A DNA stretch of 64,000 nucleotides from Antedon mediterranea. Lineage: Eukaryota; Echinodermata; Crinoidea; Comatulida; Antedonidae. The stretch lies in contig NC_092680.1 in the NCBI RefSeq assembly GCF_964355755.1, positions 16,159,001-16,223,000 of the forward strand, given 5' to 3'. Positions 8,101 through 63,470 of the stretch are shown in pieces. Under the pieces are notes generated by a model, which saw only the letters and a list, made by a program, of their open reading frames with translations, had not been told where the DNA came from and did not search any database. Numbering within the stretch: position 1 is the stretch's first letter; every line of letters begins with the position of its first letter. The position numbers and the translations under genes were made by a program.

Positions 8101-11100
8101 TACCTATTTACCTTTCTACTCGCATTTTTTATTTCATATACACAAAAATCACAATAACTATTTAATAATAAATAGGCCTAAATCAATGCAAATTAAAGAA
8201 AGATTAATTAATTGCTGTATTGATATTTTTCTTAAACAAACCTGGTGAATAACTGCTTTTTCTTGTGAAAATTTTACGATTGACATTTTAATATTATAAT
8301 ATAATCATACTAACGTCACCTATAATGGGCCATTAATGATTCTGATACTTAATACAAAGACGAAAAACCCACATTAATCACAGTGTATACATTTTGTTTG
8401 ACAGGTCGTGTATTTAGGTAAACACACGAACAAAATTCTTTTATGATTTTTCCAAGAATTGACTTGTTCCGCCTTTCTTATATGCCTAATTAATAGGCAC
8501 GGCAGCAAATGCACACAGAAGAGCAATTTATTAGACAATAGCAATCAAAGTTAATTACAGTAGGCCTACATAACGCGGAACTTAATTTGAAATACAGTTC
8601 TGTATAATTTTGTTTTTTTCGCATAGCTTTGATGAAAAAGATAACCTGCACTATTAGGAGCCAATCCATAACAACCTAATAGATATTTCAAACATTATTA
8701 AACGGAATACTTTAATTAAATAAACTTATTTTGTTTATATTATAAAATAAACTGAATATGTCGTAATGAAGCAATGATGCTAGATGTAAAATTTTATACA
8801 AATAATTATTGTATAATTCACGTAGTATTAAATAATTTGTATATCATTTTCAATTGAACAATTTACTGTTTAGATCTTGTACGTGACTGGAATAATTGGA
8901 TTATTAATTGTAACAATGTTTCACACACATAAGTATCGTAAATTACATGAAGCCAAAAAATGCAGTGATTTACGCCATGTGGTAGTCTACAGTAGGGGCG
9001 TGAAACAGCCGTGCCATTGTGTTTAATCCTTGAAACTTCTTCGTGGGCGTGTCCGTCGTATTAAAATGGAAATCCACGGTCCCGATGGACCGCGATTTCC
9101 AGCTGGGGTAGCTCTGGTCCCACGTTTAAACAAGCCTACCCCCTTGTATTCAGCTAAAATATATCTAAAAGTATCCCAATGGAAATAAGCTGATAAGCTT
9201 TTTGGGCTATCCTGGAAAATCTTTTAAAATGTATTATTTGTAATGTCCGTAATTTATGTTATCACTTTGTATGTATTTTTTATGATGACTTTCCAAATAA
9301 ATTCAAATCAAATCAAATCTATATGAAAATTGCAAAGTTGAATTGATATTAATGCCTATTATTAATGTGCCTATTCTAATATAATCTAAAATAGCACACA
9401 TTTATGTTACATTACAGATATTGATGACGTTATAAATAACATCACTTCATCTACTGATCCATCTTTTACAATGACATGTTCTGGAAATGGTAATCCTGTT
9501 CCTCAATTAGAGCTTTACCATAATGGGACCATCATAGCAAGTGACACTACAATGCTAACATACACAAGGCATAGGGTGACAGAAGATGACAGTGGAAACT
9601 ACACATGTATAGCTAGTAATACTGTTGGAAAAAGGGAAAGTACTGTGATACAACTAGATTACTGTAAGTGTGTAGACATCAGCATGTTTGCCTTCTTACA
9701 CTCGAAGATCCCGCTTCGTGAATAAAAATGAGGGCGTATCAATTTTATCTCTGGTGCGCGTGCGTACAATTAAGGGACCAGTGCTGTTCCGTCGTACAAC
9801 CGGGCCGAGAATGTTAAAGAGTCGCTCTAATCAAGTTTGAACAATACCATGAAAGCACCAGTGGTATAATGGTTAGGACATCTGCATAACAAGCAGAAGG
9901 TTCCGGGTTCGAATCTCGGTTAGGGGGACTTTTTTCTCATTCTCACAGATTTCCTCATATTTATCGTTTCAAATTAATTAATTAAATTTCAATATATCAC
10001 CGGGCGGTTTAGAATTTATTCTATGCCTGTGACGTTTATATATAAAACAAACACAAATGTACGATACTCGGGTACAGCAAAAGAAGCTGTAATGACGCCA
10101 TAAGACGGGATTTTACGTCATACACATCAATAACCTCGCTACCAAATACGACTATATTCCGAAAAGTTACGTCACGTAACCGGAAATGGCATACGGTAAT
10201 TACGGTAAATTATGAAATCTCAAAGTCACAATATCATAAATAGGTTTTACTGTATATATTCGTATTCTCCAAGTCAAGACCTTTGAAATGACACCAAACA
10301 CGGCTATATTACGACGAAAATCGTTTGGCACCAAGGTACCATCTTCGAGACGTCATATGGCTGCATCCGATTTAAAATTAAAACATCCGGAGGACATGTC
10401 CTTGTAGTATACCCATGACAAATCCCTGCTCAATACTACAACGAATAAAGGATCGCACTTTTTTTCGATTGGTACCATTTTTAAGACGTCATAATTCTGC
10501 ATCCGGTTGAAATACGACAATTTTCTCTATATAGCTTTGTTCACCTATTACTCTAGTATATGCATGCCATGTTTCAGAGCCGTCAGACGACGCGTAAAGA
10601 ACTAGTAGGACTTGAAAGTTGGCTCAATAGTGTCCAGATGGAAGAGAAGATGAGAGAGTCCTAGACTCGGGTACCCGAGTAAAAAAGTATCTCTTCGGAG
10701 ATCCCGCTTCGTGAATAAATTACTGAAAGATGAGGGCGTATTGACAATTTGATCTCTGTGCGCGTGCGTACAATTAAGGGACCGCTGCAGGTTCCGTTGT
10801 AACACAATGCAAATACCAATGCAAATTAAATAAAGGACGATTTCTAGCTGTTAATTGTTTTTTTTGTTTCTTAGATAAACCTAGCTTTTATTCGCTTGGT
10901 TACATAAGCGCTGTTTCTGGTGAAAATGTTACTATTGAAATGTTAATGTTATCATACAACCCTACTGACGTCACCTATAATTGGGCCATAAATGATTCTG
11001 ATATTGTATATGAAGATGGCAAATCCACATTGACATTCACCGCACCAGATGTTAATGAACAGACAGAATATATGATAACAATGAATGTTACCAATAGCAT

Positions 11101-13434
11101 TGGATCTACAACCGATTTTGTAAACGTATCAATCTCCGGTACGATTTCATTTTTTCATTATCCTTACTTAGCTATCAAAAATGATATTCATCACCCATGT
11201 ATTTAAGTACTATTAAAACAATGATTCTGCAGGTACCGTTTGAAACATTGTCCATTATTATTGACACTTCATTTTGTTCATTTATTTTTCTCTTAGAGAA
11301 ACCACCATCCCTCATTAACATCTGCAGTCGTCTTATGATAGGAACATTTGTTATTGGCTTGATCGTTGGTTTATTAATTGGACTATGCTTTGGTATCAAT
11401 TGTTGCAAAAAAGCTACAAAGGTCGGTTATTACATAGTTATATTTTATACAGTTTATGTTATTGATATTTTTATTCGTTAATTACTTTTTATTTTATCTA
11501 AACCGCATGGATACATTACAGTAATTATCATACTGGATATCATTCATGATTGTATTCCCTAAAATAACTTCTCTTTGAAAAAACATCCAGAATATTAAAA
11601 AATACTGGATATCATTCATGATTGTATTCCCTAAAATAACTTCTAGAAGATTTTAAAAAAATCGTTTACATTTTGTTTTAATATAGAAAAGCTCACCACT
11701 CATACAAAACATGGACGATAACAAACAAGAAGTAGGTACTGTGTATTAATCCTAAGATCTTGAGAGAAATTTACAAAATTAATACGCCACATATTTCGCT
11801 CTATTTAACCATCCTTTCGGGCACTCTTATGGAAAGGTCAACATTTCAATATCACTGTCTACAAAAGTATATATTATTTAATTTGGGGTGGCTTTCATGC
11901 ATGCGGCCCATGGCTGTCATCACGCCTAAATTGAACGTAAATCTACAGAAGAACCCAATTAAAGTATACAAACGTATAATATTAGAAAATAAATGTCTTT
12001 ATTTCTTTGTCATCTGATCCTACATTGTTTGCTTTTAATGTTATGATATTTTTTTTCCCTTCTGGATCAAATAAATCGACTTGTGACTTATTCCCGCGAA
12101 AACAAGGCGAAATATGTTTTAACACTGATGGCCAACCCCTATAAGGGGACAGCTCTATTTTTTTTCCCTTCTGGATCAAATAAATCGACTTGTGACTTAT
12201 TCCCGCGCGCGAAACAAGGCGAAATATGTTTTAACACTGATGGCCGACCCCTATAAGGGGACAGCTCTAGAAGGAAATGAGGACACTTTTGTGTGTGCCA
12301 AACGGTGATTCGACCACTACCAAGGAGAAACTTTTTTCTATACAAAAACAAAACAAAAAAAGAAAATAATTATATTCCCTTTTGATGGTTATATTTCAAA
12401 ACAACTTTCTAAACATTTGAGTAAAGTCAAGAACGCGCGATTTACTGACATTTTCTAGGTATATTATGACGACATTTCCTCACAATTTAGGCATATTTAT
12501 ATATGAGGATAAGTCGTCCAACAATACAAATTAGTGAAAACGTTTTTAAACGTAGAAGTATATGCCTTCTATTTTCACGCTCTGGATACGATTTGTATAG
12601 GATAATATTCACCTTGGAGAAGTTTACAAAGTTGAAAGATTGTTTATAATACGTTATAGCTATGCAAGACATAGGTACTATAGTTTATAATACACAATAT
12701 GCTTACTTAGGCTTCATCATCATATTTTTTGTATGGTTTTTTATATGTTTAGCCTAAATGTTGTGCGTATATTCGGTACAATAATTACGTCGGAACTAGA
12801 TAAAAAGATTACTTCAGCGCAAATTTGGCGGTGTCATGAAACATGGTCAAAGTAAATTACCACCAGATAACATAACAACTTTTAACTTGTTCATAACTAA
12901 TCCAAAGTGTCCTGCATTTTTCAGTAGTTAATATATTCACCGATACGAAATGATTGTAATCCTAATTGTTTTATCTATAAATAAATCGAAATACAACACA
13001 TGAAAATAAATATTTACATGCATTATTGCAAAGTTAATGTTGGATGGAAAGCTAAGGTAGACGTGGGTATTATAATTTAAGGACAAACAATCATAAAGCT
13101 CTGTCTACACTATCAAACTTTATGTGACAAAAAAATGTGATGTGCCCATATATGGATATGATGACGCCATATCACTACCATATTTGGGTACATTACACTT
13201 TTTTGTCAAACTAGTTTGATATTGTTAAGGTTATTGGCATGAAAACAATACCTGCATAATATCAACATTACTCATGAAAAAAAGATAGAGATATTATTAT
13301 TAACAGCTTTTTTTGTTTCATCATATTCACAGACTTACATGAAATATGGGTTGAACACCGATGAGGATGAACAAGAAATGCGACATTATCACGTTATACA
13401 ACACAACGTGGAGGAGCCATGTTATGCTAATTAG
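2171..13434 (+). CDS. Transmembrane immunoglobulin-superfamily receptor, 9 exons
   Basis: Exons: 2171-2552, 3119-3364, 5777-6022, 7749-7994, 9418-9663, 10875-11138, 11297-11421, 11687-11731, 13333-13434; all junctions are GT-AG and phases agree (about 630 aa). Exon 1 has a hydrophobic signal peptide and a V-set domain (INCDY, VQWLN, DDGYYQCRI). Exons 2-5 are 246 bp each, phase 1-1, each one I/C2-set Ig domain (MTCSGNGNPVPQ or MICSGNG, DDSGNYTCIASNTVG). Exon 6 is an Ig-like domain that keeps the Trp (YNWAI) but lacks both canonical cysteines. Exon 7 holds one membrane helix (LMIGTFVIGLIVGLLIGL) followed by CCKK. Exons 8-9 form a cytoplasmic tail of about 50 residues with tyrosines in YMKYGL, HYHVI and CYAN. 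It is a type I cell-surface recognition or adhesion protein; the ligand and closest named family are unknown. I cannot exclude further exons or alternative inclusion of exons 2-5. Confidence 0.85.
3693..4062. repeat. Three copies of a ~50-bp unit, then a retroelement-like 3' tail
   Basis: CCCCGAAACC followed by GGTGTCCGGCGGGGGATAGT starts near 3693, 3798 and 3917. It is followed by AAAGCACCTAGAGGGGTCA, TAGGCGCTATATAAATA and (TTA)n. GCGCTATATAA plus a trinucleotide tail is a common ending of L2/CR1-type LINEs and the SINEs they mobilise. Confidence 0.65.
4148..4300. mobile_element. MITE family A, copy 1
   Basis: About 150 bp. The left end ACACTATCAAACTAGTTTG and right end CATAAAGTTTTATAGTGAAG followed by ACAGAGCT are inverted relatives. 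The interior carries CCAAATATGG-type words and ATGACATCAT. Two sister copies lie near 13097 and 20655. This one sits at the acceptor side of the decayed Ig exon copy 1. Confidence 0.75.
4301..4440 (+). pseudogene. Decayed copy 1 of the cysteine-less Ig exon
   Basis: Homologous to the intact exon at 10875-11138, sharing GGTTACATAAGCGCTGTTTC and CCTACTGACGTCAC. It lacks about 8 bp after GTGAAAATG, so it is frameshifted. Its 5' end and acceptor are replaced by the MITE ending at 4300. Confidence 0.8.
4780..4945 (+). repeat. SINE-like remnant with tRNA B-box and (AATG)n tail
   Basis: GGGTCCTGGGTTCAAGTCCT contains a pol III B-box (GGTTCAAGTCC). It is followed by TTTTTTCTCATGGCAACTTG and ends in an ATAAATGAATGAATGAATAA tail. 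It is 5' truncated. Confidence 0.55.
5380..5725. repeat. Dispersed repeat, also at 58440-58835
   Basis: Shared words in the same order at both loci: TCTCACCAAACT, CAATGATCAATGAC, then TTTTATGTAGGG, AATTTTACAGTAGG, GGAGT.CC and TCTAGTTAT. A third partial copy (GCTAAATCAAAAC, AAACAGCCA) is near 41230. No coding capacity; type unknown. Confidence 0.6.
6270..6440 (+). pseudogene. Decayed copy 2 of the cysteine-less Ig exon
   Basis: Aligns with 10875-11050. The acceptor CTTAG|ATAAA is preserved, but an extra T in GAAAATTGTTACTATTGA shifts the frame straight into a TGA. A poly-A run near 6415 breaks it again. Confidence 0.8.
6690..6840. repeat. AT-rich inverted repeat in the Ig gene intron
   Basis: ATATAATAATATATTATTAA near 6693 is mirrored by TTAATTAATAATATATTATA near 6811, with about 110 bp between. 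It may be a small MITE, but the low-complexity composition makes this uncertain. Confidence 0.4.
8223..8395 (+). pseudogene. Decayed copy 3 of the cysteine-less Ig exon
   Basis: Aligns with 10875-11060. The acceptor AG is mutated (CTTAAACAAACC versus CTTAGATAAACC in the intact exon), and an in-frame TAA follows in the stretch ATTTTAATATTATAA. This is a different lesion from those in the other two copies. Confidence 0.78.
9040..9330 (+). repeat. Probable LINE/SINE 3' end with AAATC-type tail
   Basis: A non-coding stretch ends TTTCCAAATAAATTCAAATC and then AAATCAAATC, a pentanucleotide tail typical of non-LTR retrotransposon 3' ends. It is a plus-strand insertion in the intron before Ig exon 5. 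Confidence 0.5.
9707..10805. repeat. Pair of ~100-bp direct repeats about 990 bp apart
   Basis: GATCCCGCTTCGTGAATAAA starts at 9707 and again at 10700. Both copies continue through ATGAGGGCGTAT, ATCTCT.GTGCGCGTGCG and TACAATTAAGGGACC. The pair brackets a block present only after Ig exon 5, between it and the intact exon 6, which explains the longer intron there. This could be a nested insertion or a local duplication. No LTR signature (TG...CA) is evident. Confidence 0.6.
9800..10020 (+). repeat. tRNA-Val(AAC)-derived SINE-like element
   Basis: Within it, GTGGTATAATGGTTAGGAC (A-box-like D arm), an anticodon stem TCTGC/GCAGA with loop ATAACAA (anticodon AAC) and GGTTCGAATCTCGG (T arm) fold like a tRNA. 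The two acceptor strands do not pair, so this is not a functional tRNA gene. A related diverged copy lies at about 17320-17540, and the leader GAGAATGTTAAAGAGT recurs at 15851. Confidence 0.6.
11529..11646. repeat. Two-copy ~72-bp tandem duplication in intron 7 of the Ig gene
   Basis: ATACTGGATATCATTCATGA, continuing TTGTATTCCCTAAAATAACTTCT, occurs starting near 11529 and 11602, with a short variable spacer. Intronic, no coding role. Confidence 0.75.
12048..12268. repeat. Two-copy ~108-bp tandem duplication in the last intron of the Ig gene
   Basis: TTTTTTTTCCCTTCTGGATC through CCCCTATAAGGGGACAGCTCT is present twice in direct orientation. The two copies are nearly identical; the second has CGCGCG where the first has CG. 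CCCCTATAAGGGG is itself palindromic. Confidence 0.8.
13097..13225. mobile_element. MITE family A, copy 2
   Basis: Begins AGCTCTGTCTACACTATCAA, then ACTTTATGTGACAAAAAAATG. It ends with the inverted relative TTTTTTGTCAAACTAGTTTG followed by ATATTGTT. It lies in the last intron of the Ig gene. Confidence 0.78.
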
Positions 13435-21916: not shown

Positions 21917-23141
21917 TTAAATCAAACGCTGGTTAATACCCCGGCATGATGGAATGATCTTTTCATTTTCATTGATGGTGTGCAAGATTTTGATTACAAG
22001 ATCAAGAGATAGTCGATCATCAGCATTGAATGCTGTACAAGCCTGTCCAAGGTCAATCATCTCCTTACTTCCAATTGCTAATGCTATGATCTTTAAAGCA
22101 TGACCGACAGAATACACGTCACCCTTAACTGAATCGCAAGCACCATTAAGATATTTTTCTGGTGCTACGTCTGGATAATCTTGGCGGAACTGTAGGCCCT
22201 CGTTCATCGATGAAAACGTTAACTTCTTATGTTCTCGTGGGTATTGCAGTCTGCATGCCATCCCGAAATCTGTAATCTTCGCTCTATAGGTGGTTCCATC
22301 GTGGTGGATTAAGATGTTTCTAAGCGCTACGTCATTGTGAAGCAGTCCTCTTTGATGGATGGTTTTGAGGGCAGTGACCACTTCTATTGCCATAGACATA
22401 CATTCAAGCGCACTTAATGACGGTTGTCCTGTTTGCAATACCTGCAGGAATGTTGTACTGGACATGTTGCGAATGTTTCCTATAAACTCCTGTACCATAC
22501 AGCATACCTGACCTTGGCGAAAAACGCCAAAGACTTGAGGAACTGAAGGTAGATCGTATAAAAACTTCATAACACGCGCTTCCATAACCATCTGGTACCA
22601 TGCTTCATCAGGATTGTTGTAACTATCCAAAAAAGCCGTCTTGACTGCGACAAGGAGTTGATGACCTGGAAATAGATTCGATGACATCAAGTCAACACGT
22701 CCATAACTTCCCTGCCCAAGACGTACAGGATTACGAAGGTGGGAGACGCATGTGCTATCCAATAACCTCATAAGCGGCAGCATTTCAGAAAGTTTTGATG
22801 TAGCATCTCTACAGTTACCAACGGATTTTGGTGAGGTGGTGGTGTTACTTGTCGACGAACTATCGAAGCTACTGGCAGATGACAATGGCCATTGCGATGA
22901 AGAAGATGATGGAACACTACCAAAACGTTTTCTTTGTGAATTCTTACCAAATGATAACGCGGATGTTGGTTTTTTAACAATACACTGGGGTGGAGAAGCG
23001 GTAGATGCCGAGGATGACGACGCCGCACTACGAACACGTTGCCTTGGGAGAATGATCTTTCCGGGTGATAGACCTGGTGGTATGGCAAGTATTTGGCCAG
23101 GAGAAAGCGCGAATGCTGATGACCGTTGCCGAGACGATTGC

Positions 23142-23177
<36 letters not shown>

Positions 23178-26100
23178 AATAATGACGATGATGACGATGA
23201 CGATGACGATGATGATGACGATGACGAACTTAAGTTGCTATCCGCTGATTCATCACTTCTGATACAAAAAAGATGAATTACTGCTGTCCAAATCCTTCTA
23301 AATATTGACTTTCTTCTTGCTTGCTGTGGTACCTCCTGTTGAGATCTACTTAATTCAAAACAAAACATTAGAATTAATTCATAACATTCACACTAAATTA
23401 TTCGATAGCGATGCTCTTCATTTAGCTTTGTAGGCCTACACTCAGCATGTTATCAGGGCTATGTCATATAAAGACTATCCTAGTATTTGTAAGCACAGGA
23501 GCTAGTCTTGTGGTACACAAATTACAATCACTTTTCTGCCTACCTTGACTACTGCAGACCCACGAACTAGGTCTAGTCTAGGACATACTGGCTATATTTA
23601 TTATTATTATTATTATTACATATAGGCATTAGGATTAGGTCTAGGTTAGTATAACTGTGATGGCCTACTTAATCTATATTAGGTAGGCATAGGAAGGATA
23701 TTTATAGCTCCTAATTTCCTAGGCCTAAGAATAAGAGTTTTTATTATGCCTAGGTTAGCTTGACATAGTTTAGCTAGGCTACCTATCTAGTATTTAGGCC
23801 TGCTTCAAGACAAGGCCATACTTAGGTTGAAAATCTCTCTCTAGTCTAGTAGCCTACAGTCTAGCCTAGTAGATAGAGGATAGACCTACCTACCTAGTTC
23901 ACTACTACCTAGTCTAGTACTTTAGCCTACTAGCGGCATAGTTAGTAATTACTACTTTCCTATCCTATCACTAGGTATCCCAATGAAGCGGATTTTCGTT
24001 ACCGCGATTTTAACACGTTCGTGAAATTTCAAAAAGTGACGTGTCTTTGAAGTTAAAAATATACTATTTCTTATATACACATGTGAATAAAAATTATATG
24101 TCTGGAAAGATCTTGTTTAAGGGATTATTTTCATATATTTTTAATCTATGTTTATTAAATATTGTAATAGAAAACGCGAGTTAAAAATGAGGTACAAAAG
24201 CCGGCGAGCCGAAATCCGCGCGCTAAAAATAACTTTGGAAAACACCTACCCATTTTCAAAACACGATCGCACGAGGTCCATAATAGGTGGTGGAGTAATT
24301 TTTGTTGCATGTTATCAGGCTTTAAATACTCTTTATTTTGATATGTAAATCGGTTATTATTATTATGTACATCCGCCTCAAATGTCAATTTTAACGATAA
24401 AAATTGAATTTTTTAGTCTTTCTCATTATCAAAATTTGGCTAATTTAGTATTGAATTGAAGCTAATTTATATTTCTGTTTGATAAACCACATCGTTTTAT
24501 TTGACTTTGCGTGGACCTCGTGCGAAGAGGCCAACAAGACCAACCACTGAAAAAAATAATCCCTACCAAAAATATCAGTGTTTACCATTTTCCTTACGGG
24601 GGGGATTCAGTTCTCCGCTTATTACTAAATTACCGTCGCCCAGACAATGTGCATGGTATGCATGTATTAGCGCGTTAATTAATGATTGGATAACCCCTGC
24701 AGTGGACTGTTCCATTTTCTGAACTAGTCTTCGCCGCACACGAGGCATGTCGAAAAATGTCGCCTCTCATGGAATATTTGCTTCGAAACGTCAATTTTAC
24801 CGATTTATTAAATTATTTAATAAGTGGAATATTTATAAATCTATTATATAAAGCAAGTACGTTAGGAAGAAATGTACCGAAGAAATTTAAGAAGCTTTGA
24901 TTTTGCTATGCAGCGGCCGTAAGCCATTCTATGTAGGCGGCCGAAACGCGCTTTGGCCTGTGTTGCCGTTGTATGTCTACGCTGTTTCTAGGCCTAAATT
25001 TTATTCCGTATATTTCAATTCAAAGTGCAACTTTCGGTTAGAATAATCGAAAGGGAAATAAAATTAAACATGTTACAATTATACCATTGAGGTAATTACT
25101 TTGTTAAATAAAAAATTTCTTCCCGATATTTCTTAGTCTTAGGCAGAATTTAGCGTCAGGCTTTTATTTAGACCTTAGGGGCCTATATAACTTAACTTGT
25201 AGTAGGCGCGGCCGAGTCTACGTTCGGCCCGGCGCTCCAAATGGAATCGAACACATAATAAGCACGGGCTTAATTCTTATTTTTGGCGGTTCGAAAATCA
25301 ATTAAAATACTATATGATTATAAATATAACTTTAAATACTAGAATTAAAAAAAAAATGTATACTTACGAAAAATAATATTTAATTAAAAGAAACAATACC
25401 CACACAGTTTTTTAACGCAATATTTTTTTTTTTCACATTTTAACATTTTTTAACAATATTTTATGTTGTATTTCAGAATTACCTACCTGTCAATATAAAT
25501 AACCTTACTAAAATACATATTACATTTTATGCAATGCAAAAAAAAAGAAGTTAATTCACACATTGGTTCAAAAGTTATGAATCATTTAAAGACAGGAACT
25601 TTTTGGGCATTTTTGAGACATTGGGAAAATCACGCGTAAAAAGCCCTCGGACGAATTTTGGAGGGCGATATCTAAAAAAAAATATGTCGAGGACACCCAA
25701 AAAAAAAAATTCTTGTACAACTCTGTCGTATCTATGGGTTTGGAAAAAATAAGAACTTTAAAATTATTAGTATAAAAGTTATAACCCTTCAAAAATGGGT
25801 TCAAATATAATTAGAAAAAGTGCCATTTTTCAAGCAAAAATCACTGTTTTTTGGGCACTTTAATGGACCATAACTTTTGAATGGATAATCCGATTTCAAT
25901 CATTTAAATTGCAAAAGTTTATGTTCAGTAAGTTCCTTCTGATTAACTGAAAGAAAAAGTACCATCATTAATTTGAATTTTTACATTGGGATACCTACTA
26001 TCACGAGGCCTAGCTAGGCCTAGTAGCTACTACTAGTACTAGTAAGCTACAGTACGTTTAGTTTTACGCACAGGGGCAAGCCTCTAGGCTAGGCCTAGCA

Positions 26101-46708: not shown

Positions 46709-49700
46709 TCATTTCTTTTCTTCTAATTCTTCAACAAGTTCAGCAAGGTCAATTCGTCCAGCTTTTTTCAGTGCCGTGTGTAAAATATTTACTCTGTTGT
46801 CCCCTCGTTTGGTTGTCTTTTTCCATTCTAGCAACATGGCAACTGCCTGTTCTTCTGTGTCTCCTTGATGTTTCGATGACATTTTCTCTTGTTTAGAATA
46901 CGGCACTCCGAGAAATGTAGCCAGTTTTCTCCAATCGCTGCCTAATTCATCGGCCAATTCTCGAAAAACAACTTCTGTTAGTGGACAGGTATCTGAATTA
47001 ACAAAAAAAATAGGGTATAGTGTTTTCATCTTATTGAATCATAGCCTACGTCACTCATCCTGGCCATGGTGCCTAATTTTCAGACGTAGGAGCATTACAC
47101 AAAATGTCTTTCCACTATAACAACGGTTAAGGAAAACTCACTGCATTTTATGTGCAATCATATTGACTCTAGTTCATGCTTTTCTCGTATAATATACATA
47201 TTATAAAAACCAGATGATAGCCTGCTCAATGAAGGCGGTTAACAAAACAAGTGTAGGCTTACAAAATACCTAACAGGTACGGTCGCTTCTAACTTATAGT
47301 ATATCGGATAAAAGGAAAGCCTTCATTTTAAATAAAAGTCGTTACCTGATTTTTTTAGTTGAGACTGGATTGGGAGTGAAGTAGACGTCATTGGATTTGA
47401 TATACTCGGTAGCGAAACAGCCTAAAAATGAAATAAACAATCAAAATTGTATGTTTGTTGTAATAAGAAAACGGAATCAGTGGACTCCTTTTTGTAAAGT
47501 ACGCAATAAGATTATTATTCATTTCATTTAATTTTTCCTCATGTAAATACCACCATCCCCAAATTAGGTTCACTAGATACTATCTAACTGACTATCGCAA
47601 GTCGATTAGTACAAGTCTAGTAAATGATATGTACCTATATGTGTACATAACTGATTCCAGTTAGATAGTATCAAGTGACAGCAAGGTAATCGGGTGATGA
47701 TTTTTGTTGTGGAAATTAAACATACGCACCTCCGCATCTCGAAACACAGATCGTAAACCAAGTTGCTGTAACAGCTCATATATCTTAGTTTCAAAAATTA
47801 TAGGATCAGTAGCTTCAGAAAAGTCTACGTAAAGATGTCCACCAAATATTGTAGCAACCCAGCCGTCAGGAGAATAGTCGGCCTGCATTTTAATCGGAAT
47901 AAATTCCTTCTTAAATTGACGCATACAGTTTCCTTCTAATAATCAAAAAGTCGAATATAGTTGTTAACAGGGAAAATAGTGTACCATCTGATAAAACAGT
48001 CAATATGTGAAACCCACGTAGGCTTGTAGATGTTTACAGTAGGTATAATTAGGCCTACCAATTTAAGCCCGTATGGTTAGCTTATTGAAAAGGTCTATTT
48101 CAATTTACAAAGCTAAAAATTATAATTTTAGGAAGATTGTTTTCCTTTGTTTGACTTCCCAATGTATAACTACAAGGACCGTTTGATCACATTATTTTGG
48201 TAGGCCTACTAACTATGCGGGGAAAAAACGTCGATGAAAGCCCTTATTTTATTTTCATTAAAGCTAATGGTATTATAGTCGTCAACACACCTGATTTGCA
48301 ATTATCACTATGTTGGTATTTATCAGAAAAGCAAGCCAGAACAACAGCAGCATTTTTCACCGCAATTGCCATTGTGTCGAAGATAAAGCCATGCATCTTT
48401 TCTATGTCTATCCATACGTTGTAACCATGTTGTTTCAGACGATCTGCAATTTTTCGAACCATTCTAAGACAAATAATTAGTTGTATATATCATTATGTTT
48501 TCATTGAAATGCATTGATATCGTGTGTCCACCTAAATTGTTTAGGCCTATAGATAAATCATCCAATTTGGACATTATATATTAATAATATTAAACATTCT
48601 GAATATAAAATAGGGATAATAATAATTTATTTTATGATAATGTAACTTTGATGCTATTATTTTAAAACTGGAAATGCTATTTTGTTGTCAGGTGAATAAA
48701 CATCTCAATCTTTACAGAAGCACCATGTTAAATATTAGCTGTATGTTTGTTTCTTGTAATTCAATTGCATTCTGCATATAGCCGGTTTGACACATGAATG
48801 CAACTCCAACACATTTCTCTTCGTAATAAAAAAAAAAGTCAAAAGTAATATAAAGCAAGCATGTATAAAGTAATTGACAAGAAGCATCCAGTAGCTTGAT
48901 AGCTGATTCATCGATTATGCTTATGATCGATCGATTGAATGTAGAAATCAATATCAGTAGGTATACATATACTGTAGAAGGATATTTTGACATTTTAATG
49001 AAAATAACACTTACGCTTGATCATCCCATTGATAACTCATCATAATATATCCTGGAGCCTACAAAAAGTCCATTAACATACATTGGCAACAACAAAATAA
49101 AATATGAAAAAAAAACAAATAACAATGGGACAAACGTTATAATAACAAAATTATAATATTTAATCCTTGCTTTAGTCTACAAACTCCAACTAAATATTTT
49201 GCTTACAATGACGTATAGTTTAAGTTTGTTTCAATGTAGGCCTATAAGCTTTGAGGTATTACGATCCACTGTGATAAACACTGCGTATTACCTCTCCCGT
49301 CCCCGCCCCCGCCCCGCTAAAAAAGTGTTAATTGCAAGTTAATTAAAGCAACTTTAATCTAAAAACAATCTGCAGTAAACTTATACACGATTTATACAAA
49401 ATAATTTAAAAAGTACCATTATAAGTACGGTATCTTTATGTTACAGTAAAGACAACTAAAATGGTAGCTATAGCCGGGTGGTGACCAGTGTGTAGCCCAC
49501 AATCATGTCACAATGTAACGCATAGAAGTGCAGTACTTTATTGCACGATGTTCAAAATAACGAAATAAACACAAAGTTTATTATTTAGGTACGTTAACCA
49601 CATTTGAATTAAAATATTTAAATAAATTTGGACATTATTAACATTTAATTAGTCCGTCTCTCAAAAATAGGTATTTACTACACATAAACTTACTAAAAGC

Positions 49701-50466: not shown

Positions 50467-53400
50467 TTAACTAGGAGAGCACTCAGCAATGTTCTTATCC
50501 AATTCAGGCATAGTTCCAGTCTGCTGTTCAGACTCAATATGCTGCTGAGTGTCCTGCAACCACTGCACGAGATCTTTTCTTCCAATATCATCGAGTGCCT
50601 CTGAAAGTGTCTTCATCGAGTCTGATTGACTGTTTTGTCCTTGATGCCATTTTCCCAGCATCACATAACATCGACGAGTTACGGTTTTATAATCTTTCTG
50701 CAACTTCTGAATTGTTGAAGTCGCAACCTCAAGTCGTTGAGCTAATTTCGACCAATGTAATGAAATTCTCTCAGAAAGACCCTTCATAACAGCCTCAGAT
50801 AATGGGCCTAATCGTAAGAAATCAAAGTAAATTAAATTAAAATTGTTTAAAAGAAATTATATCATTCGAATTTTGTATTTCCATGTTCATAAAAAATCCT
50901 AAATTCTTACCTTCGGCACTGAAATACAAAACACCATCGATCTTGCTAATTGGGGCCTCCTGGATAAAAAAAATAACACTTTTATACTACTGTATTACTT
51001 TAAAAATGTTACCTAATCGAAATAAATCGAAACCGAAAGCCATTCCATCACATTATGTTAGGTAATGCGAAAAAAGTACTTAAAACACTATTTTTAGTCT
51101 TTTTTTCCCCTTTTGGACAAATAAAATGAATTATGAACTAACAACGGTTTTGCATACTGTATGTTGAGAATTTGGTAAGTTCATACCTTTGTTATGTCGA
51201 CATGGACTCTACCAACTTCGATGAACTTTAGATGGTTTGATGAAGTTTCATTCCGACCATTATCAATATTAGCAACATAAAAACTAATATTCCCACGATG
51301 TTTTTCAGAACCCCAGTTCATCTCTTGATTGATAGGTTTCATCAGAAATGTATATTCAATCGTTTGGTTTTGGTGAAATCTCAACATAATGTTATCTTTT
51401 CGGCTCTTCACTTCTTTTACGTTTCCATCCAAACATACTTTTATATGTTGGCCTTCTCTTATCGCTATGTCTTCACTCTGGAAGATAATATTATAGCAAG
51501 AAACTGTTGTAAGCTGTCGAAGAAGCTCATCTAACTCGTTTACAAATACCACTCGCAGAATCGCCTGCCTGTCATTTCCTTTCTGCTGACCTAAAATGAT
51601 GTTTATGTAGAATGTGTTCACTTGGTTCTTTAGATGTCTTGCAATTACTGGTAAGTTGGTCAAGATTGTTGTTTGAAGAGCAATTACCGTTATACTGATT
51701 AGAAAGAAACATGATGATAAGAAAAATAGATGCGTTTTGTTCAACATTATCCTTCTTATAATTGACAGACTGTTGACAAAAAAAATGGTGAGTATTCTAA
51801 GGGATGTTAATGACATTGGTGATGAAGATGAAATGACAACGGTGATGAAGATGATGGTGATAAACATGAAATAAAGATTGATAATAATAAAACAATAAAT
51901 TAAAGGGTAAAACATACCTTTTACAAATATTCAACAACTTAAATCTTAGTGTTCCCTTCGACCCATCGGCGACAACATTACACGGGATAACTGACCATCT
52001 TATCTTGTTTGTAGAAGTCAAGATATGGTAACCAATCATGATTTCATTTTCCCCATCTTTAATGGACTCCAGCTCTCCGCTGGTGAATTGAACATGCTCA
52101 GTTCTCCTCATCTTTGGGCATGGTAAAACAATCTCTCCCGGTAGTAAACAATCTTCCATATCCTTTTCTGGTAGTAGCGATAGAAATGGACTACATGAAA
52201 TCAAACCGCCACAGCCTTGAACATTTACATTCGAATTTGCGATAACCGACTGATGAATACATTCTACCTGTACAGAATGTAAAGAATGAAAATTGGTTAT
52301 AAATTCCCGAATTCTAATAAAACAACATTATCATAGGCCTACATAACTATCTTAAACTACATTTAACTAGTTTAAACTGACAGCTTATCTTTAAACTACC
52401 CATTGTCATTACTTCTTAAACAAACTTTATTTGTGCATACTGGAGGCCGAATTTGAACTCTTTAACAGTATCATGTTTTACAGAATTGGAAAAATAATAA
52501 AATTATAAAACAGTAAATCACCTTTTAGTATATTAATATATTTTGAATTTGCAATGTTTAAAGAAATTACTGAGATCAGTATAAAATCGAATAGAAATAT
52601 CACCATGGCAAAAAATACTATGTGTAAATATTTTGTTAAATTAGGTGAAAGTATAAAGTACCTCCAGTAATATTTTTTTTATAGTAGGCCGAAAAAAGAT
52701 TTTTAAAAAAATAAATCGATAATTGTTTTTGCTTAATTATTGCAAAATTGAGAGAAATATAATTTTAAAATAAAAAACATCATTTACGCCTAATATTTGT
52801 TCTCACCAGAAGTTTTGCCGTCAAACCAAAAGAATTTTCTCCGTAGGTTATTTCTACGTCCGGAACGTTTTTGGATCGTATAGTTCCACCTTCTTGTAAA
52901 ATACTAACATCGTATTCCTTATGGCGATGGATGATAGCATACATACCAAGTACAGTTACTTCAATTTCAAGAAATCTAACACCCTAGACAAGAAAATTGG
53001 TCAATAATGTTACGTACCCAATGAATGTTACTTATGTAAAAATGTATGGAATCAGTAGCAAGATTTTTTTTTCAGCTAACTGGTACTGTTGGTTCAGTTA
53101 TATCTTTGGAAATGTCCGTGATACCAGGGAGTTTTACATCTCTCTGGTAATAACGATTGTTAGTGCTAAAAATATCACACAAAAGATGTCACGTATTTAG
53201 AAAATTGCTATATTATGGGGTATTTAGTTTATCTTTTTAGATGTACAATTCACGGATTATACCGTGTTGCTTCCCATATCATTGGCTTATAGTTTTTTTT
53301 TTACCTAAAGAAAATAACTTTTACGAAGATCATACTAAATGCAATATGAAATAACTGGCAGTTAAAAAACTATTATTTATTTCTATTTAATTTATTATAA

Positions 53401-55999
53401 ATTTTTTTGTAAATGACTGAATACCTGATGTTCTTCAAAGACTTTCTCAAACTTATGAGGAATTACGTCATTCCAACTTTTCCCACCATCGTTCGAGCAC
53501 AATACTACAAGTTCATTCACTTGACCATCCAGCAATTCCTTTCTGATTGGTATTGCCAAATAAATAAACGGCTTAACAGATTTTCTTACAGGTTCCAGGT
53601 TCAAGATATCACATACTATCACGTCGCCGTCGTTTAATGGTATGGTAGTGTCTTGGCGTGGGTTGGTTGCAACAAATGGTTCACCGTCAATGTGTTCAAC
53701 TGGTGATCGTATAACGCACAGCAGTTGGTTATTATGGTCTTGTACACTGAAATGAAATTATTGATATTGTTAGACAGATTATAGTTTTATTTGTTTACAT
53801 ATTTGTATACATGTATTTTTTGTGAATCAATTAATTATCAATTATCAAAACACACCTTATAGTTTTCCAGTTGCTTAATGGTACAGTGTGATTTACTTTC
53901 GCTTGAGAGTCTTTGTTTTTCAACTCTGCAAACAACAAAGACAAAACGAAGAAAAAACTGTCAACACAGTTGCGTCAGTTAATCAATTTGATAATGTAAT
54001 GGATGGATCTCCCATTACATCAATGTTTGAACGCATGTCGTTTTTTTATATCGTTAATGTTTGTATGTGCTTAATACATTTAGACTGTTTTCTCGATAAG
54101 GCAATAGTTTGCCACATGGAGTCTAGTGACAGCTACAGAACCGCCACCTCTAGTGCTTAGCTTCATTTCTTCCTAATAGTTTATGATTGATTATTTGAAT
54201 TTATTATATCATACTTTACTTTAACACAGTTAGAGAATCTTTAACAAACTGGTACAAACTGGTACAAACTGGAACAAACTGGTACAATGACAAAGAATTA
54301 ATGCACATGTTATCTTACTATTTGAACAGTCTGCGACTATTGAAGTCAGTAAACATTTACTCTTGGAAATTGTATCGTTAGAAGAATCAAAAGAACCCAT
54401 GAACTAAAAAAAAAGAATTATTGTGATGTATTTTTGTTATTAGAAGATGTTTTTTCTATCTAATCGTCTGCCTCTTGAAGTTCAATATAGCAATTTGTAT
54501 TTTCACTCATCTATCTTTTTGTCAAAAATGTTGTTGTTGTCTAAAATCTTTTTTTTTATTCTTATTTTTAAAGAATCTCCATATTTTTTACCAATATAAT
54601 AGATCCACACTCTATGTTTGAATCTTTTTATCATTAAAGGTAATTGTCACTTTCTGATTTCTGATTAATGTTTTTAAACATTTATGATCGAAAGGTGACT
54701 CCATGAAGTTATATAAGAATAAGATCAGAACTTTTAGAAAACGGTTATTTGCTAATCTTGTTGTGGATAAATACAATTCACTACCAGATAAGTTCTCGAG
54801 CTAGTGCCAATGAAGTATCCACCAAGTAAGTTAATTTCCTGTTAATGCACAAATGTTTGAGGAAAAGTCAAGACTATATTTTTCGACTATATTCCTACTT
54901 GTTAAAGTTATGTCGCATGGCTGTTACAGATAGTACTGGGTGTTCTGTACAGTTCATTTTCATTGAAATGCAATGTCATTTATGTTTCAAAAGAATATGA
55001 ATACTTTACATTGTTTGTTTGTTTTACCTACCTGATTATTTGACCTAAGGCAGTATTCGAGATGCATCATGATAGCCTGGAATTTACTACCGTCTTCCGC
55101 TTTTGTAAAGTCGACTTTGTTGGTAGATCGAACCTCTCCCCACCTCTCAATGTTAAGACCGGTCTCTAACACTAATGTTATAAATCCCTTTTCATATTTT
55201 GCTATAGATTCACCAACTAACAACAAAAATAATAAATACAACAGAGGACAATTTTTATTTAGTCCTGAGGATGTTAACTGCACAAATAATTTATTATTGT
55301 ACAAATATTTTAGCAATAGGCCTAATAGGTTCTAACAATGACACCTTACCTTTTTGACAAGTAAAACTCTGTTCGTATTTTTTAGAGAAACACCCAAGAA
55401 CAAAGCGTGAGTGCTGTACAATTTCTGATGTGCTTAAAACTCTGTCGCTTTTGAAGATTTCATCTAGAAGTACATCATACCCACTGTCAAGTAATTTCTT
55501 GCCAACCTTTTTGGCCATTCTTAAAACGGGAATAATAATAATGATCGAACAGAAAACTATATAATCTTTTTTTTCCTTGATTATTAATACACATAGCTTT
55601 CGTTTACGTACCTCACTTTTTTGTCAGAATGACTATTTAATTCGACAGCTGCGTGGTCGTGTATGCGTCGTGGAAACAAAACTTCTTTTTTATCAACATC
55701 TTTCTCATAATACGCCTCGACACTTACGATGATAATGATTTGTAACAGGGATTTCGATGACCATCATGTTAGGATGATGGTTCATCGTTGACATCATCAT
55801 CCATTTCTTTTTCCCTTTATTTATTAACTTTAATCATTTTATGAATTATATTAAAAAAATTATATATTAAAACTTATTTCTAAATAAAAAAAATCAATTG
55901 AAATAGTATGTCTAGTCTTTTTTTCATTACATCATTTAATACTAACCCATCATCTTCCCGGTTATAGCTAAGTAGTATGTAGCCAGATGATTGATTTCC
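50467..55999 (-). CDS. TIR - ZU5 - ZU5 - UPA - death domain protein (PIDD1-like tail), 11 exons found
   Basis: Exons on the minus strand: 55999-55947, 55519-55350, 55216-55032, 54403-54319, 53925-53856, 53746-53425, 52983-52807, 52267-51918, 51694-51187, 50959-50911, 50807-50467; phases agree, 769 aa without the missing first exon. TIR at about 6-136 (GYILLSYNREDD, FVLGCFSKKYEQSFTC, GFITLVLETGL). A linker follows to about 190. First ZU5 about 190-310 (KPFIYLAIPI, ELVVLCSNDGGKSWNDV, VTVLGMYAII). Second ZU5 about 315-475 (QEGGTIRSKNVPDVEI, PGEIVLPCP, TNKIRWSVI). UPA about 475-640 (NTFYINIILGQQ, ILRVVFVNELDELL). Death domain about 665-755 (LHWSKLAQRLEV, MLGKWHQGQ, LSEALDDIGRKDLVQWL). ZU5-ZU5-UPA-death is the PIDD1 layout, but a TIR stands where PIDD1 has leucine-rich repeats. 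The HF-S autocleavage motif seems absent from both ZU5 ends. It is probably a cytosolic death-fold scaffold. The start codon exon was not located. Confidence 0.85.
54247..54288. repeat. 10-bp tandem repeat in an intron
   Basis: CAAACTGGTA is repeated four times (one copy reads CAAACTGGAA). It is intronic to the TIR-ZU5-UPA-death gene. Confidence 0.85.
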
Positions 56000-56896
56000 C
56001 TGCAAAAAAAAACGGCTCATAATTAATAATTGCAAAATATGGAAGGCGAAGATGAGGATAAAAGAAGTACTGTCAACATTACATAGATATATAAACGTAA
56101 ACGTTGGGAGGTTTATCCAATACAAAATAAAATGGTCTTTTACACATTGGATATACCATTCTGTGTGATACTTCCCACAACATCCCTCAGTTATGTAATA
56201 TTTAGACATATTATCCATTAGTTATAATTGAGGAGCAGGTATAGATCCAAGATGTAATACAAACGGTGTGGGCCTAACTCGCCACTCAAATCATCCAGTA
56301 TTCGCAAACACTATTTGCTCGCAAACACATTATACACGTATGGTCATCTACCGAAATTCATATTTAGAATTGGGTGACTCAATCAATGATGATGCAAAAC
56401 CAGCTACATATTTTAACCACGGAGGTAAAACTAAGCAAATATTACAAAGCTCTAACCAATTTTAAACCTTTGAAAACAATTACACTGATGCTGAATCCCC
56501 TACCTACCCAAATTACAGTGAATTACCATCGTCGTAGAGAGACATACTCACCCCCATATTATGTCCTTGGTTGTTTGTCTCCAAATTAATACCAACTAAT
56601 AGTGCGCTCTATGACAACTGATAATTATTGATACATGGCATAAAGGCAATCAAAAGTAGTATTTTTTTATATTCTATAAAATTCATAAGCAGGTTTTGAT
56701 TGTGACATTATGGATGTCATTACTATTAATGGGTGTACTATTAGTATCATCTATGTAAATTAAAAGTACTAAGACGTAGGCCTACATTCATTTTAATTTA
56801 TACAAAGTATATCGTCTGATAAGCTGCATCTTCGTTACCTACGTCAGTCAAGATTAATTTCAGTTTATGTAAGAACAACGAACAAAAGGTCTAAAC

Positions 56897-58835: not shown

Positions 58836-60894
58836 CATTTCAACATCTTTAAACAAATTACAATATCCTATAATTTTTTTTTTATCGCAAGGGTAATTCT
58901 TTTTATTTATAATTGTGAATACGCCTACATGACTTTTGAGTTTAAAAGTTGTACCTTATTCCAGCAGCAAAAAAAGAACAGGGATAAAATTACTAATATT
59001 TGTAGTCATTGGGTTGCTGTAAATACTATATTAAATCAGTTAATAGGTATATTTCCAAAACAAAAAAATGTTAAAGATGATGTTGCAGTTCAACGATGGA
59101 AAAATAAAACAATTAGGCCTAACAAAATCACGTTGGCTAAATTTCGCATGATGTGAAGTTTAACGATTCCACCGCAGGAAATCGCCTATCAGTAATTAGT
59201 GATTTTATTTTTATTATTAAACGCGTAGAATTCTATCTGAAAAAAGGTGAATTCCAATTTCATTTTAATGAGTACGACGATGTTTTATAATTTCAGTATA
59301 TGAAATTCATTAATGCACAGAAGCCTTAGTGAATATCGACGACACTGCAATAGGTTCTTCCGAAGTAGATGTTTCGTCATCTATAGAAATATATCAACAT
59401 ACATTAAGTATGCGAGATACAGTAATTAATTTAATAGGTTACAAACTATACATGAACTAATAATAATTATTATTATTTGGTTTGACGCTTTTGCAACAGC
59501 GGCACAAACAATCGATAGTGCATCTTAATTATAACATTATAAAATAGGATTAAATTATAATACTATAGATAACTATATGATAAGTACAGGTATATTTAAA
59601 TAGTCCTGTCTGAAGATAAGATTGAATCCAAGTGTCCAACGGCGCAAAGTGCACCGCCAGCACAACCCGTTAACAGAACCAGTGGAGGTAGATCAAAAAC
59701 AGCAAGCGACAAAATCACTAGATAATCACGAAGACAAAATATTGATAGTATTTGGTAGAGTTATATTATTTTTTCGTACCTTTCATCAAGCTTTTTCATC
59801 GATTTTGATACGTTCTAATACAAGTAACTCCAAAAAATAACTAACCCTAATCCTCACCCAACAACCACAACCAACGGTTTTTAAAAACTAAATAATCACT
59901 GATAGTTACTGGTAAAGTGAGTAAAGCCGATTTTAACCAATATCTTAGAAAATATGGACAGGTTCTTCTTTGCCCAATATTAAACACTTCTTTTGGTGGA
60001 GATGGTGGGTGAGTTTTGGTAGTGCTGGTTTTTGGTAATTGCCTTGTTGAGCATTTTGAAATAAAATCATTATATAAAATATACTTAATACCTTACCGAT
60101 ACCGCATTTACAATACAGTTGGTCATTGGAATACACTTTGAGTACTTCAATATATTGGACATAATACTATTTTTTCACAGTAAGTTATTTAAATTATTCC
60201 AATGATTTATATTAAATTATTGTGTTGATCCGATAGTTAATGGACGTACTAGGTATAGTTGATTCGTCCCCTTCGTGGCGCCTTGATAAGATTTCACGTC
60301 TGACGAGCACAATATTGAATATATCGTAAGCCTCTACCAAATTAAGAGAATACATGGCGTAAATATTATGTCGTATCAGAACCAGCACTCTACATCAAAG
60401 CAATATTTCGTCCATATGATTCACTTTTCGTTTTTTTTTTGGTTTTTGTTTATAGAATTAATTAAATCCATCCATGTTTGCTTTACCCACAAATTCTCCA
60501 TTTTCAACTTCATCATTCTCCAAACTTCAGTTGTACAGGACCGATCATATTTTCGATCCTTAAATGTATTGTAGCCTATGAAATCGTAGTGTATCTGCAG
60601 CTTGTTTGTAGTTCACGTGCTTATCTTCCATAAGGTCCAGGGTTCAATCATGAAAGAGTGACTAGGGTTCATTTTGTAACTCACGATTTATACTCAACTA
60701 TGATGAAGCATCAAATGAAACTTAGTTTCAACAAGGAAGAATATAAATTATAGTTTATCCATTCTGTTATTGGCGTTTCTCGCTGTTGAATGGATGCGAG
60801 TGAAATAAAAAGGAAAAGACGATGTTATCTTGAAAGAGGAAATTCTGATTAATCGTACATTTTATTTATTTCCACAAAGCAGCTTGTAGGAGCA

Positions 60895-61758
60895 ATGGCG
60901 TCATCGAATTATGAGAGAACACACTTGCTGACAATTGAACCTGATACCTACTGGTCAATGACTTCTGATATTGTTGATGTTGAATTTGATATTAATGGGA
61001 ACATTCTTGTCTGCAACTCGACCGATGAAATTATAAAGTTCAATCAACAAGGCAAATTTTTATCAAAATTTTCCGTTGGTCTTAACAGAAAAATAAAGGG
61101 AATGTCGTGTAATAAAAAGGGTCAAATTTTTATGACCGATGACAACGCAAAAGAAGTGATAGTCTGTGATGGTAAGGGTCAAGTAACGTTCACATTTTTA
61201 GTATCACGTGATCCAATTCATCCCAGAGGATTAGTAGTTTCAAAAGAAACGGGAGATGTGTTTGTTGTGGACAGTTACGCGAAAAATGTTCTACGATTCA
61301 CAGAAGATGGGAAATCATTAAAGACATTTAGGCCTATAGGCATATATAATGAGGTAAAGGGAAACTTAGTTTCCCCATTTTATATAGCCTTGGATTCAAA
61401 CCAAAATGTACTTGTAAACGATACGGAGCAGAATCGTGTCCAAGTATTTCGACCAGACGACGGTCAGTTTGTCCGATCTCTACGTGGATGTCGCCATCCA
61501 GGAACGTCTTTAGAATTCTTAAATCAACCGAATGGTATTGCTGTTTTTGAAAACGGAGCTGTAGCCGTCGGTTCACAAGCTGGGTTGTTTGTTTGTAAGA
61601 ATGAATCATACGGGCCCATACTTCGTAGGTTTGACGATAAAAACAGTTCGAACAGCATTATGGGTACTAAAGGTATTGCTACTTACCGTAACATTTTGGC
61701 AGTCGCATTATCGATAGCAAATGCCGAGTCCACCATCGAGTTATTTAAGGATTCATAA
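60895..61758 (+). CDS. NHL-repeat beta-propeller protein, single exon
   Basis: 287 aa from ATGGCGTCATCG to TAA, consistent with six NHL-type blades: DVEFDINGNILVCNSTDEII; GMSCNKKGQIFMTDDNAKEV; GLVVSKETGDVFVVDSYAKN; YIALDSNQNVLVNDTEQNRV; GIAVFENGAVAVGSQAGL; GIATYRNILAVALSIANA. This is the C-terminal module of TRIM-NHL proteins such as TRIM2/3/71, but no RING, B-box, coiled coil or filamin domain precedes it in the frame. An acceptor-like TTGTAG at 60884-60889 just before the ATG allows an upstream exon, though I found none resembling RBCC in the preceding 5 kb. An AATAAA lies at 62004-62009. It probably acts as a protein- or RNA-binding propeller; partner unknown. Confidence 0.85.
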   Translation: MASSNYERTHLLTIEPDTYWSMTSDIVDVEFDINGNILVCNSTDEIIKFNQQGKFLSKFSVGLNRKIKGMSCNKKGQIFMTDDNAKEVIVCDGKGQVTFTFLVSRDPIHPRGLVVSKETGDVFVVDSYAKNVLRFTEDGKSLKTFRPIGIYNEVKGNLVSPFYIALDSNQNVLVNDTEQNRVQVFRPDDGQFVRSLRGCRHPGTSLEFLNQPNGIAVFENGAVAVGSQAGLFVCKNESYGPILRRFDDKNSSNSIMGTKGIATYRNILAVALSIANAESTIELFKDS

Positions 61759-62597: not shown

Positions 62598-63470
62598 TAT
62601 TATTATTATTATTTATTGCCAAAAACCAGTTACAAACAAACAAAAACACAGAAACTAAGGGAGTAGGCAGGAACCTAAAAGTGAACCTAATCACTATAAC
62701 AAGAGTTCAGGTTCCGTACTCCCAAAGTAACAACAATGATATAAAATAAACTATATAAAAATATTTAAATAACAAATAGACGAATCAACAGTGTCAATAT
62801 AAAATAAACGGATAAAATACATAATAGTCGATTCAACAAAGTCAATATAAAACATGTGATTTAAGTGAATTTAAAAATGTTGGAAAACTGTCTAAAATTA
62901 AAGAATTTTTAATCATTTCCGGTAATTCTTCCCACAACCTAGGGAATATATTAATAGCGGAATGATGAAGACAATTGGTTCGAGCATAGTGATGAATGAA
63001 CTTAAGTGTATCAAGGTGACGGCCATTAACAACTATAGATTGACAAACACTACTACAATCAACCGTTCCAATAAGTGATTTACAAAAGGATAACAGAAGA
63101 TAATTTCTTCGATTAGATAGTGTAGGCCAATTTAGCTTAGTGAGACGTTCCTCGTATTCCATTTCACTTCTTGTTTGTTTAAGGACAAGCCTAGTAGCCC
63201 TTCGCTGGACTGCCAAGTTTTTTGGTTCGAGGCAACCACGCTGGGACACCATATTCAAGGATGGGGACAATGAGAGCTTTATAGAGTGAGAAAATAGCTG
63301 AAGGGGATAATCCTCCTGCAATACTAGTAATAAAACCCAACATTCGATTTGAACGAGAAATAATTAGTAATCAATCTATTCTTATTGGAAAGTTGAAAGA
63401 AGTGTTACTAGTTTGGAAAGTCAATGCAATGGTTTTATTAAATGGTTTGCATAATTGTTGATAATGGTGG
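62598..63470 (-). mobile_element. 5'-truncated, frameshifted CR1/Jockey-like LINE
   Basis: Minus-strand frames give MLGFITSIAGGLSPSAIF, SLYKALIVPILEYGVPAW, then a frameshift near 63220, then AVQRRATRLVLKQTRSEMEY, KLNWPTLSNRRNYLLLSF, FPRLWEELPEMIKNSLI, FPTFLNSLKSH and a stop at 62842. This is the distal reverse-transcriptase/C-terminal part. A 3' UTR follows (GGTTCACTTTTAGGTTCC region), and the end is TTTTTGGCAATAAATAATAA, an (AAT)n tail. Above 63350 the coding similarity fades. Confidence 0.88.

Follow-up and report, generated by a model that had tools for sequence, protein, structure and literature searches.

Does the crinoid Antedon mediterranea have a gene in which a TIR domain is joined directly to a ZU5-ZU5-UPA-death domain tail, and what could such a protein do? 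The question is raised by a locus on the minus strand of contig NC_092680.1 (C11 below; assembly GCF_964355755.1), lying between positions 55999 and 50467 of a 64,000-nucleotide stretch (C11:16159001-16223000, hereafter the window, to which positions refer unless a contig is named). An initial annotation of the window had spliced eleven exons into a protein of 769 aa with a TIR, two ZU5 domains, a UPA domain and a C-terminal death domain (DD), and had called the tail PIDD1-type. By comparison of sequences, including searches of the source genome (354 Mb, 18 contigs), we confirmed the locus as one predicted gene with the order TIR-ZU5-ZU5-UPA-DD. It is best read as an adaptor that does not cleave itself and has the MyD88 order inverted, with the DD held by a ZU5-ZU5-UPA clamp, and of this reading we infer the clamp, the input and the output.

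The eleven minus-strand exons were reproduced, with the frame kept across all of them, AG at the acceptors and GT at the donors, and a length of 769 aa counted from 55999 when the acceptor at 51694 is used. Use of an alternative acceptor, 51769, lengthens the protein by 25 hydrophobic residues (796-aa form); acceptor 51694 was preferred since these residues are missing from the second gene described below. The start codon may come from an exon of two codons, 56557-56552 (ATGGGG followed by GTGAGT), which is in phase with the next exon and would bring the protein to 771 aa. It is guessed from the sequence and has no backing from the second gene, whose beginning differs, and an unspliced start a few codons upstream of 55999 may be used instead. 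With the two-codon exon, the candidate N-terminus (56557-56552 plus 55999-55947) is MGGNQSSG, which fits an N-myristoylation pattern (Gly2, Ser6) and would place the TIR at a membrane; the second gene begins with MDPTSRHS and does not share the pattern. The predicted parts of the window gene are as follows.

56552..56557, minus strand: candidate first coding exon (Met-Gly), donor GTGAGT, from its phase fit to the next exon
55947..55999, minus strand: TIR exon 1 (GYILLSYNRED), from frame and Pfam
55350..55519, minus strand: TIR exon 2, from frame and Pfam
55032..55216, minus strand: TIR exon 3, from frame and Pfam
54319..54403, minus strand: linker exon, from frame
53856..53925, minus strand: linker exon, from frame; the two linker exons here correspond to one in the second gene
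53425..53746, minus strand: ZU5-a exon, from a profile match to the first ZU5 of ankyrin
52807..52983, minus strand: exon with the end of ZU5-a and the start of ZU5-b, from phmmer and profile searches
51918..52267, minus strand: ZU5-b exon, from phmmer and the three-gene profile
51187..51694, minus strand: probable UPA exon (acceptor 51694; alternative 51769), from position, ankyrin collinearity and the second gene, with no Pfam UPA match
50911..50959, minus strand: short linker exon between UPA and DD, from frame and the second gene
50467..50807, minus strand: DD exon with stop, from Pfam, phmmer and profile

That this order goes beyond chance is indicated by a second full-length gene with equal order and intron phases. 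A genome search with the ZU5-DD part of the window gene returned 11 matches, 5 of them in the window gene itself and 3 at C11:9.084-9.087 Mb, 7 Mb away, where a gene of 10 exons (C11:9089254-9083815) encodes 795 aa, with the TIR first and ZU5-ZU5-UPA-DD after it. The two proteins are 23.9% identical (residues 5-742 against 11-780), and all 9 comparable introns have equal phases (2,1,0,2,0,0,2,0,1); the window gene has, in addition, one more linker intron and the intron after the candidate start. As the exon borders of both genes were set by eye, guided by the frame, this strong agreement in phase is not a wholly independent line of evidence. Taken alone, the TIR of the second gene stays under the TIR_2 cut-off (21.3 bits against 28), and its Death match passes (36.1 bits).

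A third relative was reached with the ZU5-DD part of the second gene, which had 46 matches in the genome; those in the UPA region lie only at the two TIR genes and on C7 (37% identity in UPA to the second gene at C7:24043030), the rest being ZU5 or DD matches. Six exons plus a Death exon at C7:24041195-24045986 give ZU5-ZU5-UPA-DD in a partial assembly whose N-terminus and pre-DD border are not fixed, and its three shared ZU5/UPA borders have, judging from exon lengths, the phases of the TIR genes. Pfam recognized only Death in this gene, and neither ZU5 nor UPA. C7 is absent among the 78 places of the genome scan with TIR_2, but a TIR there is undetected rather than excluded, because the same scan misses the split TIR exons of both TIR-ZU5 genes. 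No convincing leucine-rich repeat (LRR) was seen by eye in a pattern scan of 20 kb, and two open reading frames (ORFs) upstream have no Pfam match at E<=0.01. A canonical LRR-PIDD1 was not found in the genome by an exon-by-exon search, which can miss one, and the C7 gene is a possible counterpart of PIDD1 here.

The TIR and the C-terminal DD of the initial annotation were both found over the Pfam cut-offs in the 796-aa form (TIR_2, PF13676, E 3.6e-10, 40.8 bits against a cut-off of 28; Death, E 2.1e-9), and neither LRRs nor ankyrin repeats were matched at E<=1. For the middle of the protein, phmmer with the 771-aa form against PDB (14 rows) gave Ankyrin-1 with an E of 8.1e-6, aligned to residues 294-745, which span the second ZU5, UPA and the DD. 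A profile built from the two TIR-ZU5 genes (37 rows) reached Ankyrin-1 at 8e-13 and Ankyrin-2 at 2.6e-12; on Ankyrin-1, stretch 266-398 falls on the ZU5 region (independent E-value, i-E, 9.1e-6) and stretch 577-806 on UPA-DD (i-E 0.0012). With a ZU5-ZU5-UPA profile of all three genes, made without the DD, ankyrins 1-3 are the best 5 of 9 rows (E from 1.8e-15 to 1.4e-12) and are matched in the ZU5 part. We regard the homology of the predicted ZU5-ZU5 to that of ankyrin as solid. The solved relatives returned for the ZU5 part are ankyrins, while PIDD1 is present only as DD chains, with no PDB row for its ZU5 and UPA in these searches, and therefore likeness to PIDD1 and to ankyrin is not comparable on equal terms. 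The solved DDs closest to the two-gene profile are that of RIPK1 (8.3e-8) and then that of PIDD (9e-7).

PIDD1 cleaves itself after each ZU5 at HF/S, and CARD8 and NLRP1 do so at SF/S, as described in parts of PMC3210808. The ZU5-UPA parts of the window gene, the second gene and the C7 gene contain no [HS]F[ST] pattern; the single match in the window protein sits in its TIR, and HFT is present in the UNC5CL-like gene found at C3:36.96 Mb. Since the pattern is missing from the ZU5-UPA part, self-cleavage of the window protein is not expected. The predicted gene is not PIDD1 proper, since LRRs are missing, as is any HF/S-type motif in the ZU5-UPA part. As to the label PIDD1-type, the domain order stands, but this order is also that of ankyrin.

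We tentatively suggest that the product would be a cytosolic TIR-ZU5-ZU5-UPA-DD adaptor, its DD restrained by the clamp and freed or concentrated via TIR clustering, a reading to which we give real weight while still doubting it. The TIR would be the input, binding the TIRs of activated receptors or adaptors, or oligomerizing. ZU5-UPA-DD supramodules are known, and because of them we infer that the ZU5-ZU5-UPA block would form a closed clamp on the C-terminal DD. Clustering of the TIRs would then concentrate the DD or free it by a change of conformation, unlike the self-cleavage of PIDD1, because the cleavage motif is missing. The DD could then, with a partner of IRAK, RIPK or RAIDD type, seed a DD assembly, and the output would be NF-kB-type signalling or caspase activation.

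Several results limit the domain calls or weigh against this adaptor. Pfam found neither ZU5 nor UPA in the 796-aa form at E<=1, nor in the separate ZU5 and UPA pieces of the TIR genes with a limit of E 10, a limit only partly effective as HMMER filters remove most matches above ~0.1. Over exons 53746-50467, where the initial annotation had taken a lack of ZU5, UPA or Death matches as contradicting it, Pfam thus saw Death and not the other two, which goes half-way to that contradiction, and for this reason the more sensitive searches were made, which recovered the ankyrins. The ZU5 domains of the initial annotation were borne out in this way by profile, while UPA becomes significant only together with the DD: its stretch alone in the three-gene profile has i-E values of 51 and 69. 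UPA is likely when considered jointly with the neighbouring domains and is the weakest of the domain calls. Structure models of the single exons for UPA and ZU5-a had a mean pLDDT of 35.3 and 40.4 and were set aside. As for the TIR, the family matched is TIR_2 and not PF01582, and no TLR or MyD88 occurs among the 20 PDB rows of the TIR profile at E<=1, so Toll-type receptor binding is not suggested by the sequence. The similarity of the DD does not predict its partner.

The initial annotation had gone further and wired the TIR to a PIDDosome-like scaffold. In a TIR-triggered PIDDosome, the DD would recruit RAIDD and a protease like caspase-2, and the TIR would take over the input role of the LRRs. 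Such wiring is possible because CARD-DD genes exist in the genome: CARD and Death matches are found side by side at two places on C9, 2.118 Mb and 24.351 Mb. The candidate at C9:2.118 Mb, whose two best PDB matches are the RAIDD CARD (3.9e-8) and the CRADD DD (5.9e-6), is clearly RAIDD-like in sequence; that at C9:24.351 Mb is less clear (Ankyrin-2 DD best at 2e-6, CRADD DD 9.3e-6, RAIDD CARD 0.0012). The match of the DD profile to the PIDD DD speaks for the same complex, but the RIPK1 DD outscores it, and data of one group, in parts of PMC11637483, strongly suggest that activation of RAIDD/caspase-2 needs the second cut of PIDD1, at S588, which yields PIDD1-CC, a cut for which the window protein has no motif. 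We consider a TIR-triggered PIDDosome unlikely, and we would put somewhat lower still a variant dispensing with self-cleavage, in which a TIR-gated RAIDD/caspase-2-like complex would form via the ZU5-ZU5-UPA clamp in a family of two diverged genes with ZU5 and UPA parts unseen by standard Pfam.

A different function would follow if the TIR cleaved NAD+ like SARM1 or plant TIRs, with the ZU5-ZU5-UPA-DD scaffold as its regulator. The 20 PDB rows of the TIR profile consist of 17 TIRs from bacteria (Cat1), plants and SARM1, each a weak match (E between 0.0068 and 0.85), and 3 aldolases. NADases are among these closest solved TIRs. In plant TIRs the catalytic glutamate stands three residues past a conserved Cys, but both TIR-ZU5 genes lack it (Cys-Gln-Lys-Val in the window gene, Cys-Lys-Thr-Ile in the second), while a neighbouring TIR-DD gene has Cys-Lys-Ser-Glu; the comparison is not final because the position sits near an exon border. 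We find an enzyme of this kind improbable, and rather improbable also a TIR-bearing scaffold of ankyrin type at the membrane or cytoskeleton, unconnected to death signalling. The latter would agree with the ankyrins being the significant PDB matches of the ZU5 part, a list that cannot favour PIDD1 given that its ZU5 and UPA had no row, but Pfam sees no ankyrin repeats and the TIR-DD neighbour points to TIR/DD signalling. Finally, two genes could have been read as one, or the locus could be an untranscribed relic, since the start codon is a candidate and acceptor 51694 was picked by comparison. The open frame across GT-AG-bordered exons and the second locus with equal order and intron phases make such an artefact or dead copy very improbable.

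The non-cleaving adaptor that we prefer can be placed among known proteins. The order of MyD88 is DD and then TIR; the window gene shares these two interaction domains, but in inverse order (TIR first, DD last) and with a ZU5-ZU5-UPA insert of ~450 aa between them. It has the ZU5-ZU5-UPA-DD order of PIDD1, its UPA being likely, with a TIR where PIDD1 has LRRs. From ankyrins 1-3 (ANK repeats-ZU5-ZU5-UPA-DD), the best sequence match of its ZU5 module and collinear with it on to the DD, it differs by an N-terminal TIR and the lack of ankyrin repeats. UNC5CL and UNC5 share the ZU5-UPA-DD tail, but have one ZU5 and a membrane segment (by eye). In sections of PMC3210808, the FIIND of NLRP1 and CARD8 is a ZU5-UPA fold beside a death-fold domain, as predicted for the window gene, but one that self-cleaves. 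The predicted gene fits none of PIDD1, ankyrin or MyD88, because of the missing LRRs, HF/S and ankyrin repeats and the reversed order. We found no report of a TIR-ZU5 or TIR-PIDD fusion in the open-access literature searched, which does not prove absence; a link between UNC5CL and IRAK was likewise not found there and is not used as support. Related combinations are mentioned in parts of other papers: TRADD-N proteins fused to a UPA-ZU5 module, with lineage-specific TRADD-N expansions in marine animals (PMC8195603), and NACHT-ZU5 genes together with one sponge gene joining TIR with DEATH (PMC12909245). A survey of amphioxus, sea urchin and human counts 28 combinations with TIR in amphioxus against about six in sea urchin (PMC2575513), and the word ZU5 does not occur in its text. 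Since Pfam sees only TIR and Death in such a gene, surveys of this kind could have missed the middle part.

Next to the window gene lies the TIR-DD neighbour already mentioned.

46709..49058, minus strand: TIR-DD neighbour gene, exons 49058-49015, 48463-48291, 47935-47730, 47421-47346 and 46992-46709; start codon not located

Pfam recognizes TIR_2 (1.6e-20) and Death (2.8e-14) in it, and neither ZU5 nor UPA. Its intron phases are 2,1,0,1, those of the TIR exons and of the entry to the DD exon being as in the window gene. Its TIR is nearer to that of the window gene (29.8% identity, E 2.6e-17 at a set database size) than to that of the second gene (2.2e-14), and its DD is nearer to that of the second gene (3.5e-11) than to those of the C7 gene (5.3e-8) or the window gene (1.2e-7). 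It also has the inverted MyD88 order, and its TIR retains the Cys-x-x-Glu that both TIR-ZU5 genes lack. Because TIR-DD and TIR-ZU5-ZU5-UPA-DD forms stand side by side, the sequences suggest that the middle cassette was gained or lost by exon shuffling, in either direction.

In the genome as a whole, Pfam matches of single exons, which are lower bounds, indicate at least 78 places with TIR_2 (E<=0.01), at least 150 with Death (150 of 181 candidates scored), at least 69 with ZU5 (E<=1), at least 4 with UPA and at least 17 with CARD. COX1 had no match in the assembly. Many of the 69 ZU5 places are in arrays on C4 and C1, others are on C2, and several on C10 and C7 adjoin a Death match. We tabulated neighbouring matches using all 78 TIR places plus 3 added, all 69 ZU5 places plus 2 added, and 67 of the 150 Death places (the 83 left out are chiefly in arrays on C3, C5 and C9). 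The added rows belong to the two TIR-ZU5 genes, whose TIR and ZU5 exons the family scans miss, so other such genes may be missed as well. Within this table, TIR is followed by ZU5 on one strand, at a distance of up to 15 kb, in the two genes described and nowhere else. The reverse, ZU5 followed by TIR, occurs in four pairs, one from the window gene to its TIR-DD neighbour and three on C1, 12.8-14.7 kb apart. Four MyD88-like loci with DD followed by TIR are in tandem at C11:5.62-5.66 Mb, each with two more TIR matches downstream (C11:5.616-5.664 Mb), and a TIR followed by a DD 2.3 kb away is found at C3:7.85 Mb. Elsewhere in the window, we recognized by eye Ig-like domains of a receptor (2141-11206, plus strand), a protein kinase ORF with a serine-rich start (21917-23392, minus strand), an NHL-repeat-like ORF (60853-61758, plus strand) and a reverse-transcriptase-like relic (62842-63363, minus strand).

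TIR adaptors and PIDD-type DD scaffolds are known as separate branches of immune and stress signalling. The predicted gene suggests that immune sensing is linked directly to a scaffold for cell death or inflammation. If this is true, at least one animal lineage would have fused the two branches, and the ZU5-ZU5-UPA cassette would be a movable gate between an input domain and a DD, working without self-cleavage chemistry.

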